Shown: positions 6,333-13,439 of the stretch, piece by piece
Position numbering within the stretch: the stretch's first letter is position 1
How the letters are laid out: each line of letters opens with the position of its first letter
Origin: Verrucomicrobia bacterium UBA7008
Lineage (GTDB): Bacteria; Verrucomicrobiota; Kiritimatiellia; RFP12; UBA1067
Length of the DNA: 15,719 bases
Assembly: GCA_002449695.1 (NCBI GenBank)
Contig: DJXI01000002.1
Span: 1,818-17,536 of the forward strand
Direction: 5' to 3'
The notes under the pieces: generated by a model
Seen by the model: only the letters and a program-made list of their open reading frames with translations
Told to the model about the DNA's origin: nothing
The model's database searches: none
Program-made: the position numbers and the translations under genes

Positions 6333-6334
6333 TC

Positions 6335-6395
6335 GTGGGGACAGACCCCGTTGAACGTGGGGACAGACCCCAAGACGGGCGTGGGGACAGACCCC
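6335..6395. repeat. Three direct GTGGGGACAGACCCC repeats upstream of dnaK
   Basis: Exact 15-base copies lie at 6335-6349, 6357-6371 and 6381-6395, separated by 7 and 9 bases. Each is an imperfect palindrome (GGGG-ACAGA-CCCC) able to form a 4-pair hairpin. The same unit occurs at 6249-6263. Spacers are too short for a CRISPR array and the unit is palindromic, which points to REP-like dispersed repeats. Confidence 0.85.
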
Positions 6396-6428
6396 AAAAG
6401 ACGGGTTGGCACGGGGATTGCTTGTAAA

Positions 6429-10404: not shown

Positions 10405-12204
10405 GTGAAGGCGCTCGCATCATTACTGACGGCGATCGGGTTGGCGGCGACGGCATATGCCTCGCCGCCGCCCGTTCGTCTGGCCTACAACTACTGCACG
10501 CTGTCGTACACGATGGCGTACTGGGGCGAGGCGGAATGGACGGCCGAGATTGACCGCCTCGCGCGCGCGGGCTACAACGCCGCGCTTGTCACCGACGGCA
10601 CGTTCAAGGTCTGGCAGCTCGCGCTGCGCGAGCTGGGCGCGAACGAGGAGACGATCCGCGCGTTCATTCCCGACGAATGCGCCCGCGCCTGGTGGCTGAT
10701 GGGGAATCTGACGGGCGAGGGCGGCCCGCTCGACCCGCAGACGATCGACGACGACGGCGCGCGCGGCCGGTGGATCTGCGCGCAGATGCGCGCGCGCGGC
10801 ATTGAACCGGTGCTGCAGGGCTGCACGGGCATGGTGCCGCTGGAGGACGTTTTTTCGGGCGCGGCGTCGCCGAATCGCGGCGACTGCGTGCTCATCCCGC
10901 AAGGGAAGTGGGGGCCGTACGAACGGCCGCCGCTGGTGGATCCGACCTGTCCGGCGTTCAGGCGTCTGGCCGAAGTGTGGTACGCGAAGCTGGAGGAGGT
11001 CTACGGTTTCAAGCCGGCGTATCTGGCGGGCGATCTCTTCCACGAGGGCGGGCGGACGGACGGCGTCGACGTGACGGCGGCGACGCGCGCGGTGCAGGCG
11101 GCGCAGCAGCGGGCGTTCCCCGGCGTCACCTGGGTCGTGCAGGCGTGGCAGCGCAACCCGACCGCAGCCGTCCGCGCGGGGCTCGATCCGCGCTTCACCC
11201 TGATCGAAGCGCTCGCCAAGGACATGAGCCGCGATCCGCAGCCGATGGATTTCGGCGACCTGCCGTGGATCTGGTGCGAGGTGCTGAACTTCGGCGGCAA
11301 CCACGGGCTGTACGGCAATCTCAGGACGTTCGCGCATCTCGGCGCGTGCACGAACGCGACCTTCCGCGGCTACGGGCTCCTGTCGGAAGGGCTTGGCACG
11401 AATCCCGTCTGCTACGATCTCTTTGAAGAGATGATGCGGCGCGACGCGGGAAGTGTGATGACCGACGCCGAACTGGACGAGTGGCTGAACAAGTGGGTCG
11501 ATCAGCGCTACGGCCTCCCCCCCGTCCACTCTCCACTCTCCACTCTCCACTCTCAATTCTCAACTCTCAACTCTCCACTCCACACCGCCTGGCGGATCTT
11601 GGCGGAGACGGTCTACGCCTGTAACCGCTGTCAGGAAGGGACGACGGAAAACGTGATCTGCGCCGAGCCGTCGTGGACGGCCAACAACGTCAGCACGTGG
11701 GGGCCGACGGAGGGCCTCTGGTACGATCCGGCGCGGCTCGAAGAGGCGGCGCGGCTCTTTGACAAGGCCGGCGAAGAGATGATGTTCACCAATTTGCAGA
11801 GCGTGCTGAACTTCACGCATGATCGGTATGACATCCGGCGCCAGGTGCGGGCCAACGACGTGCGCCGCCTGCTGCCGCGCCTGAAGGATCCGCACGACCT
11901 GCCGGCACGGAAGGAATTCATGCGCCACCTGTTCGCCCTTGAGCCGGTCTGCACGTGGCTGGGCGTCCCGGACGCCTTTCGCCTCGAACCGCAGCTCGCT
12001 CTGGCGCGGGCGCGGGCGGGCGCGCGCGGCGAGGCGGCGTTCCGGCGGATGGTGACGACGTGGGCCGACCCGAAGTACGGCCGCACGACGCTCGCCGACT
12101 ACGCCAACCGCGAATATGTCGAGCTCCTGCGCGACTACTATCTGCCGCGCTGGTGGGCGTTTTTGAACCGGGCCCCCGCTGACGGCGTTCCTACAATGGA
12201 ATGA
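10405..12204 (+). CDS. Exported alpha-N-acetylglucosaminidase, GH89 (NAGLU family)
   Basis: Releases terminal alpha-linked N-acetylglucosamine from glycans; known family substrates are heparan sulfate and the GlcNAc-alpha-1,4-Gal caps of gastric mucin. The GTG start gives an immediate signal peptide (MKALASLLTAIGLAATAYA). The catalytic barrel begins almost at once with YNYCTLSYTMAYW (family YxNxCTxSYxxxxW). Other landmarks are MGNL, the loop DLFHEGG with Glu214 as likely acid/base (aligned with human NAGLU Glu316), WCEVLNFGGNHGLYGNL (~290-306) and LLSEGLGTNPV with Glu328 as likely nucleophile (human Glu446). The helical domain ends near DYANREYVELLRDYYLPRW. At 599 residues it is short: the small N-terminal domain seen in human and clostridial enzymes is absent and the C terminus stops early. 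A 7-base tandem repeat sits in frame at 11525-11580. There is no clear ribosome binding site, so it probably relies on coupling to groEL. It overlaps the next gene by ATGA. Confidence 0.93.
   Translation: MKALASLLTAIGLAATAYASPPPVRLAYNYCTLSYTMAYWGEAEWTAEIDRLARAGYNAALVTDGTFKVWQLALRELGANEETIRAFIPDECARAWWLMGNLTGEGGPLDPQTIDDDGARGRWICAQMRARGIEPVLQGCTGMVPLEDVFSGAASPNRGDCVLIPQGKWGPYERPPLVDPTCPAFRRLAEVWYAKLEEVYGFKPAYLAGDLFHEGGRTDGVDVTAATRAVQAAQQRAFPGVTWVVQAWQRNPTAAVRAGLDPRFTLIEALAKDMSRDPQPMDFGDLPWIWCEVLNFGGNHGLYGNLRTFAHLGACTNATFRGYGLLSEGLGTNPVCYDLFEEMMRRDAGSVMTDAELDEWLNKWVDQRYGLPPVHSPLSTLHSQFSTLNSPLHTAWRILAETVYACNRCQEGTTENVICAEPSWTANNVSTWGPTEGLWYDPARLEEAARLFDKAGEEMMFTNLQSVLNFTHDRYDIRRQVRANDVRRLLPRLKDPHDLPARKEFMRHLFALEPVCTWLGVPDAFRLEPQLALARARAGARGEAAFRRMVTTWADPKYGRTTLADYANREYVELLRDYYLPRWWAFLNRAPADGVPTME
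11525..11580 (+). repeat. Eight tandem 7-base repeats inside the GH89 gene
   Basis: The units are TCCACTC four times, TCAATTC, TCAACTC twice, then TCCACTC, with no interruption. They encode a Ser/Leu/His-rich insert (HSPLSTLHSQFSTLNSPLH) between QRYGLPPV and TAWRIL, where relatives run straight from RYG to the AWR helix. Seven is not a multiple of three, so gain or loss of one unit would shift the frame downstream and remove the helical domain. The present copy number keeps the frame open. Confidence 0.9.
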
Positions 12205-13439
12205 GGTTTCAAATCACGGCGATGGATCCGCGCGGATCGCGGACGACGTTTTCGCGCGAAGCGACGACGGCGGAGGCGCTTTCCGCCCAGCTGCGCGCGG
12301 AAGGCTTTGTCGTTGTCGCGCTGACGCCGGACACCGCCGCCGCGCCCGATCCGACGGCGCGCGAACCGGACCGGACGCTGCCGCGCTACCATCCGGCGTG
12401 GCTGAAGCCGATGACGAATTTCGACGTGGAAATGGGCCTGCGCCAGATCGCCTCGATGATCGGCAGCGGCGTCACCCTGCTCTTCGCGCTCCAGACGGTC
12501 CAGGAGCAGGCCGCCTCGCCGCGCGCGGCGCGGGCGTGGGGGCGCGTGGCGGAGAAGATCCGCGCGGGCCGCTCGTTCGCCGAGGCGCTGGCGGACGACG
12601 TGAAGCGGTTCGGCGAGATCACTGTGCGCCTCGCGGAAGTGGGCGAGCGCTCGGGCGAGCTGCAGCGGACGATGACCCGCGCCGCCGACCAGATGGAGGC
12701 GCGGCGGAACCTGCGCACGACCGTCGTCAACGCGCTCGTCTACCCGGTCCTCGCGGTCGCGCTCGCGATCGGCGTCAGCGCCTACCTCGTCACGATGGTC
12801 ATCCCCAAGATCGCCGACTTCCTGAAGTCGGGCGGCGTGGCGCTGCCCGGCCTGACGCAGCTGCTGATGGATTTCGCGGACTGGGTGAACGCGAACGGGC
12901 TGGCGATCCTCGCCGGCGCGGTCGCGGCGGTCGCGGCGTGGATCGTCGTGCGGCTCAACGCGCACGGCCGCGAGCTCGAGGACGTGTTCCTCCTGAAGAT
13001 CCCCGTCACGGGCCGGATCCTGCGGCTGTCGGCCACGGCGCTCTTCGCGCGGTCGATGCAGATCATGACGGAGTCGGGCGTGACGCTCCTCGACGCGCTG
13101 GCCACGTCGGCGCGGCTGCTCGGCAACCGCCGCTGCCGGCGCCGGGTGGCGGCGGCGCACGACGCGGTGATGCGCGGCGCGTCGCTCGAACGCGCGCTCG
13201 CGCCCGCGCGCGAGTTCCTGCCGATGCTGCGGCGGATGGCGGCGGTGGGTGAGGTGACGGGCGCGCTGCCCGAATCGTTCGGCGAGACGGCGCGCTTCCA
13301 CGAGATGCTGCTCGCGATCGCCGTCAAGCGCTTTGGCATGATGATCGAACCGGTGATGATCGTCATCACCGGCATCATCGTCGGTTTCGTTTACGTTGCG
13401 TTCTTCATGGCGCTCTTCGCCATCGCGGGCGCGGCGTAG
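12201..13439 (+). CDS. gspF: Type II secretion / type IV pilus inner-membrane platform protein (GspF/PilC family)
   Basis: Polytopic inner-membrane protein that links the assembly ATPase (GspE/PilB) to pseudopilin or pilin assembly. The 412-residue length is usual. A short cytoplasmic N-terminal region (MRFQITAMDPRGSRTTF, family-like) precedes two T2SSF domains at ~74-170 and ~281-370. Both carry the expected 'M..SGV.LL.AL' and 'GE.(S/T)G.L' motifs (VGERSGELQ, VGEVTGALPE). Three membrane segments lie at ~173-203, ~232-254 and ~380-410, the last ending FFMALFAIAG. Its ATG overlaps the GH89 stop as ATGA, suggesting translational coupling. The secretin gene follows after 27 bases. GspF and PilC cannot be told apart from this sequence; the ATPase and pseudopilins are not in the window. 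Confidence 0.9.
   Translation: MRFQITAMDPRGSRTTFSREATTAEALSAQLRAEGFVVVALTPDTAAAPDPTAREPDRTLPRYHPAWLKPMTNFDVEMGLRQIASMIGSGVTLLFALQTVQEQAASPRAARAWGRVAEKIRAGRSFAEALADDVKRFGEITVRLAEVGERSGELQRTMTRAADQMEARRNLRTTVVNALVYPVLAVALAIGVSAYLVTMVIPKIADFLKSGGVALPGLTQLLMDFADWVNANGLAILAGAVAAVAAWIVVRLNAHGRELEDVFLLKIPVTGRILRLSATALFARSMQIMTESGVTLLDALATSARLLGNRRCRRRVAAAHDAVMRGASLERALAPAREFLPMLRRMAAVGEVTGALPESFGETARFHEMLLAIAVKRFGMMIEPVMIVITGIIVGFVYVAFFMALFAIAGAA

Follow-up and report, generated by a model that had tools for sequence, protein, structure and literature searches.

A heptanucleotide array inside a Kiritimatiellae GH89 gene probably belongs to a dispersed satellite that is kept in frame within genes as a disordered linker

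The window, the whole stretch of 15,719 nucleotides from Verrucomicrobia bacterium UBA7008 that was analysed here, holds a GH89 gene overlapped at its stop codon by a gspF-type gene and interrupted, in frame, by a tandem array of 7-base units (Table 1). The encoded protein is a GH89 enzyme by its NAGLU barrel and C-terminal domains and its similarity to solved enzymes, and its activity is predicted accordingly. With the GH89 enzymes 2vc9, 7mfk and 4xwh it has the barrel, the C-terminal domain and the conserved glutamates in common; Glu214 and Glu328, which we take to be the catalytic pair, are invariant in 36 aligned homologues and both precede the array. It differs in a repeat-derived loop about 16 residues longer than in the solved enzyme, the array corresponding to a 16-residue gap in the alignment to 2vc9. 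An AlphaFold model based on 36 sequences (mean pLDDT 86.2, pTM 0.88) places the array between helices 354–368 and 391–401, with a short helix (377–380) inside it and block confidences of 69 and 61, compared to 97, 94 and 95 around it. In this model the array appears as a low-confidence loop that links the barrel to the helical part.

Table 1. Features of the GH89 locus, with positions in the window
Feature	Position	Strand	Basis or remark
GH89 (alpha-N-acetylglucosaminidase) gene, 599 aa, GTG start	10405-12204	+	ORF, Pfam, similarity to solved enzymes; array in frame
NAGLU TIM-barrel domain PF05089, residues 25-344	10477-11436	+	upstream of array; contains Glu214 and Glu328
NAGLU C-terminal domain PF12972, residues 360-589	11482-12171	+	envelope starts before array; array is an insertion in PF12972
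Low-confidence loop, residues 371-390	11515-11574	+	AlphaFold model, pLDDT blocks 69 and 61
Tandem array, 8 units x 7 bases (TCMAYTC)	11525-11580	+	encodes GH89 residues 374-392; member of dispersed heptamer satellite (probable)
gspF-type gene (PF00482)	12201-13439	+	start overlaps GH89 stop as ATGA, 12201-12204

Tandem Repeats Finder described the array with period 7, 8.0 copies, 91% matches and consensus TCCACTC; its units are, in order, four of TCCACTC, one TCAATTC, two of TCAACTC and a final TCCACTC. A three-unit pattern (up to one mismatch) matched six times in the window, each time within the array, against a mean of 0.00 matches in 200 dinucleotide-preserving shuffles of the window, and both results agree with the initial sequence-only reading, which had reported eight contiguous 7-base units in the coding sequence. 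Within this coding frame the unit length is not divisible by three, and the prediction of that reading that a change of one unit would truncate the enzyme was confirmed by the computed products, 414 aa for one unit less and 408 aa for one more instead of 599 aa, while three units fewer or more keep the GH89 frame. It had inferred on/off phase variation, in which slippage toggles GH89, possibly along with the gspF-type gene that overlaps it, and for which neuO of E. coli K1, as described in the part of PMC3046976 available to us, is a precedent. The four identical consecutive units would favour such a switch, this being among the longest perfect runs of the arrays surveyed (at least four in 5 of 48 arrays, see below), and together with the varying copy number between close relatives they make slippage at the GH89 array plausible; the mixture of unit types speaks against a switch. 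A lone frame-shifting repeat in an uncultured genome is weak evidence of phase variation until the same repeat has been searched for genome-wide.

A protein search for GH89 returned 285 proteins, of which 120 were listed, clustered at 90%. In P0001 (98% identical to the window protein) the array is equally long, with the unit types reordered and two residues fewer before it, and P0003 (96% identical), which begins at an internal codon and of which just the linker was used, has seven residues fewer in the linker. Read back from the peptides of these two cluster representatives, which were compared at the protein level, the unit numbers are about 8 in P0001 and about 5 in P0003, with 8 in the window. 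Unit number thus differs between near-identical homologues, as phase variation would have it, but by three units, and changes confined to multiples of three are what the sequence-only reading had set beforehand as evidence against switching. Lengths of 401–421 aa, as expected of an off product, do not occur among the 120 homologues listed, which also argues against a switch, with the proviso that the 90% clustering may conceal some. In 24 genomes of the genus, 26 further GH89 loci were compared: two have, at this site, clear arrays belonging to the satellite family (L144 of G431 and L062 of G006), 20 have a short native turn only and four have other inserts; by eye, similar peptides occur in P0019, P0024, P0026, P0030, P0045 and P0058 among 70 aligned homologues. 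The supposed absence of the Ser/Leu/His-rich loop from known GH89 enzymes therefore holds for 2vc9 but not for several relatives, which carry similar peptides or arrays at this site. A lasting pairing of GH89 with gspF was considered and discarded, since the flanks (about 1.5–3 kb) of 15 GH89 loci in 11 genomes of the genus contained no groEL, gspF or secretin gene.

Searching the genome for the same array, as the sequence-only reading had proposed, uncovered it at both genic and intergenic positions. The three-unit pattern matched 96 times in this draft metagenome bin of 94 contigs and at most once in each of eight other genomes of the genus within a sample of the phylum, in which 31 of 387 genomes had any match. 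Our census covered 30 stretches around the matches of one pattern search, plus the window, and yielded 48 arrays of at least three units in 37 clusters; these numbers are a lower bound, as at least one more array of related spelling exists in the genome. The reversed pattern was unsuited as a control and was left unused, TCAACTC reversed being a rotation of itself. Within genes lie 26 of the 37 clusters, amounting to 36 arrays (20 in the direction of the gene and 16 against it) with the frame open throughout, although two are weakly supported as genes: L083 has a weak DHDPS match, and L093, without a gene call or Pfam match, was counted for its open frame and its likeness to L097. We rejected the idea that the 11 non-genic clusters mark genes broken by the repeat, because the neighbours on the two sides belong to different Pfam families in nine, which are hence not genes split by an array; one of the other two has a neighbour without a Pfam match and one lies at a contig end. 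A viral carrier is unlikely, the four-unit pattern being present in just 17 stretches of a viral collection.

Five inverted pairs of arrays were observed, some 17–27 bases apart. The in-gene pairs at L076:2503-2604, L085:2506-2591, L099:3866-3973 and L101:6946-7043 have predicted folds of −51 to −70 kcal/mol and are apparently read through by ribosomes. L093:2537-2631 and L097:2487-2521 share a composite of a reverse array, a short GC-rich hairpin and a forward array, located right behind an apparent signal peptide. Such pairs and the common composite, as well as palindromic elements in the DNA polymerase I linker of two other genomes (G434 and G436, see below), are what would be expected if a small mobile element with defined ends, similar to a MITE or a Rickettsia palindromic element (RPE), carried the arrays. 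Apart from that composite and the GH3 paralogues described below, however, no common ends were seen by eye in the flanks of the 48 arrays, whose lengths vary freely, so that we regard such a carrier as highly improbable.

The host genes include several with housekeeping functions. Arrays lie between the DNA_mis_repair and MutL_C domains of MutL, between the 5′–3′ and 3′–5′ exonuclease domains of DNA polymerase I (polA), between the GTPase and KH domains of Era, within the catalytic model of alanyl-tRNA synthetase (alaS), ahead of the biotin domain of an oadA-like carboxylase and ahead of the Fis-type HTH of a sigma-54 activator. TrmD also holds one, as do PBP1C-like, UvrD/PDDEXK, FHA-T2SSE, GH35, GH2-type and GH81-type proteins, and three GH3 paralogues (L087, L096) have arrays at about the same place, ahead of an Fn3-like domain. 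Scores exceeded the NCBIfam equivalog thresholds for MutL, PolA, Era, AlaS and TrmD but not for PBP1C and oadA, although the pyruvate carboxylase subunit B model was passed. Several of polA, mutL, era, alaS and trmD are usually essential, and hence switching cannot be the general purpose of arrays that occur in all five, a further point against phase variation. At the 3′ ends of three genes, of argG, thiG and decarboxylase type, the array itself seemingly supplies the stop codon, a TGA or TAA contained in the reverse unit (L080:2543-2577, L102:2504-2559 and L101:2499-2533).

When placement was compared with domain boundaries, 16 of 21 usable clusters fell outside Pfam domains, against 4.9 expected, the count being confined to the region bounded by the outermost domains. 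Left out of the 26 in-gene clusters were L073, L083, L093 and L097, which have at most one domain and the array beyond any such region, as well as L099's first GH81 cluster, since it runs into the beginning of the domain; one TrmD boundary was estimated, and without TrmD the result is 15 of 20. The five inside domains are in AlaS, a GDSL-GH2 protein, a decarboxylase, a solute-binding protein and the window GH89, the last counted as inside because the PF12972 envelope starts at residue 360.

Because the unit length of 7 cannot be divided by 3, forward arrays are free of stops in all three frames and encode one and the same heptapeptide, of the STLNSQL type, in each. Forward arrays in genes are translated as (STLNSQL)n and reverse arrays as (ELRVENG)n or (ELRVESG)n. 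The latter stay open because they have TCCACTC or TCCATTC where TCAACTC would give an in-frame TGA: TGA is found in 0 of 25 codon-aligned slots and in 44 of 64 other slots. Although the zero follows in part from selecting open frames, the contrast shows that the alternative unit type is placed where it is needed.

Length differences were analysed against G009, a near-sister with a 98% identical PolA, array-flanking DNA about 90–99% (mostly >95%) identical and 178 matches to a two-unit pattern. GH89 was not found in the G009 data, except for a short match to the repeat peptide, and the decisive length comparison hence rests on the other arrays, whose sites were paired through flanking DNA and flanking protein. 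Nineteen of the 26 in-gene clusters could be paired, of which five were equal in length and 14 had changed, by +9, +63, −21, +30, +21, −39, +3, +21, −21, −21, +42, +27, +105 and +21 bases. All 14 changes are divisible by three and leave the frame open, and nine are divisible by 21, the length of three units; for changes that ignore the frame, the odds of 14 out of 14 would be about 2e-7. Thus, in a comparison of one genome per species and of consensus assemblies (cluster representatives for GH89), frame-breaking copy numbers amount to 0 of 14 length changes. Three changed pairs are weak, namely L093 (74% on one side, so that it may be a paralogue), L096:1677 (another linker sequence in G009) and L090:2472 (57% on one side), and without them 11 of 11 still keep the frame. 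With DNA anchors alone, L084 and L093 showed differences that three does not divide, owing to anchors that lay inside repeats or ahead of the gene, and L082 came out at −6 instead of +21; where these anchors were poor (L084, L093 and L096:1677), pairing by flanking protein was used. In contrast to the in-gene arrays, both intergenic arrays that changed moved by a single unit: six of the 11 intergenic clusters could be paired, four equal and two 7 bases longer in G009, namely L080 and L090's first cluster (the latter read from the sequences by eye, as unavailable bases distort the computed value).

Repeats are generally prone to misassembly and the genome is a draft bin, which might suggest an assembly or binning artefact. 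This is extremely improbable, given that the 56 bases of the GH89 array fit within one short read, that near-identical GH89 homologues have arrays at the same site, and that an array is present in both independent bins at 18 of the 19 paired in-gene sites.

These data point, with a probability that we put at roughly 0.8, to the GH89 array being part of a heptanucleotide satellite, dispersed in the Kiritimatiellae lineage of this gut bacterium, which is kept in frame within genes and tolerated there as a disordered linker. The observations behind this are its dispersal, the open frames, the excess between domains, the frame-keeping differences between close genomes and the low model confidence of the GH89 loop. 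Arrays would gain and lose units, probably by slippage or unequal recombination, and may spread through ectopic recombination or template switching; the strongly folding in-gene inverted pairs are a hint of the latter. Within genes only frame-keeping length changes would persist, purifying selection presumably acting as the frame filter and the linker peptide being near-neutral, so that the arrays would survive as unstructured interdomain linkers, the places that tolerate the satellite. Phase variation of GH89 is, with GH89 homologues differing by three units and every in-gene change keeping the frame, quite unlikely and we no longer favour it, although a minority off state may occur at this array; the other option mentioned in the sequence-only reading, harmless insertion of a dispersed satellite, is instead supported by the same arrays genome-wide, in frame and in housekeeping genes.

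Arrays with an AACTC core were found in 34 of 61 genomes of the genus, this one included. In G004, seven of eight examined arrays (8 of 10 places) are in genes and open, compared with none of six in G016 (five stretches, one array overlapping a gene end) and one of 14 in four other genomes, one from the same family and three from other families of the phylum. The in-gene habit is therefore not general. Two genomes of a distant lineage of the phylum, G289 and G379, have TCAATTC arrays of their own (52 and 58 matches, respectively), with one of 11 examined in a gene.

The PolA linker was surveyed at 30 loci, 26 of them readable, with repeat types judged by eye. G030 has another heptamer spelling there, G426 and G440 have G-rich heptamer-like repeats, and G436 (L175) and G434 (L181) have an in-frame palindromic GGTAGGG...CCCTACC element resembling an RPE; in G020, whose PolA is 92% identical, no heptamer, G-rich or palindromic element was seen by eye. 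Stops in some polA matches were traced in five loci, and none lay in the linker (three ahead of the apparent start, one at residue 150 and, in one locus, none). Among 30 MutL linkers a strong 7-base period occurs in the window's genome (G000) only, and L291, L297, L301 and L308 have, by eye, different short peptide repeats. The MutL linker segment measures 100 residues in G000, with the satellite, and 99 in G020, without it, and hence the array there replaces linker rather than lengthening it.

This similarity also bears on the possibility that linker length is adaptively tuned, being selected in seven-residue steps for activity or domain spacing in the manner of NeuO heptads. The nine changes by multiples of 21 bases agree with such tuning, as does the growth of NeuO efficiency with heptad number in the portion of PMC3046976 available to us, whereas the five changes by other multiples of three, the wide variation of linker sequence among species and the MutL lengths make it unlikely. 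Tentatively, the frame-kept satellite may be one case of a genus-wide process in which short dispersed repeats, heptamers whose spelling varies with the species and, in some species, palindromic elements, time and again invade and rebuild the disordered linkers of multi-domain housekeeping proteins, with PolA, MutL, Era, the biotin-dependent carboxylase and GH3 among them.

Cyanobacterial STRR repeats are related dispersed heptanucleotide repeats. Further ones are TAACTGA, known from marine Beggiatoaceae (PMC4679880), and GGGAATC, known from Xanthomonas and akin to repeats in Nostoc (PMC4692102); in the available portions of these two reports, they resemble the present satellite in their scattered short tandem arrays with lengths that differ between close relatives. 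The Beggiatoaceae repeats should, according to the same portion of PMC4679880, be tolerated at the ends of proteins or between their modules. Such heptamers, as these portions describe them, lie mainly outside genes and, where they are genic, mostly at the protein periphery, in contrast to the 26 of 37 clusters that lie in genes here, mostly between domains. RPEs, going by the part of a review of MITEs at hand (PMC10969869), likewise occur in frame in unrelated protein genes at tolerated places but are palindromic units of about 150 bases in several families, unlike the variable 7-base arrays, which are mostly non-palindromic, have no common ends by eye and change length by unit steps. Like neuO, as described in the accessible part of PMC3046976, the satellite is a translated heptanucleotide in which three units make one heptapeptide of a flexible peptide and unit numbers outside steps of three break the frame. 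In the same source, however, neuO is a single locus with one unit sequence directly after the start codon, 2–93 copies and off states, whereas the arrays here are short, mixed, genome-wide and in mid-gene, with only in-frame states seen. The satellite hence unites features of dispersed heptamers and RPEs, and the off states that define neuO were not seen. We found no description of it in Kiritimatiellae among the open-licence papers listed, as judged from titles and the beginnings of abstracts.

A simple satellite thus sits inside housekeeping genes at domain boundaries, where its length shifts and the frame is held, a direct and testable tie between selfish DNA and the evolution of protein linkers. 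Since a unit of length 7 is translatable in every forward frame, selfish DNA may double as a supplier of linkers under frame-keeping selection. The window also has a second dispersed repeat, GTGGGGACAGACCCC, which is tandem at 6334-6397, ahead of a dnaK-type gene, and has 20 matches in the genome.
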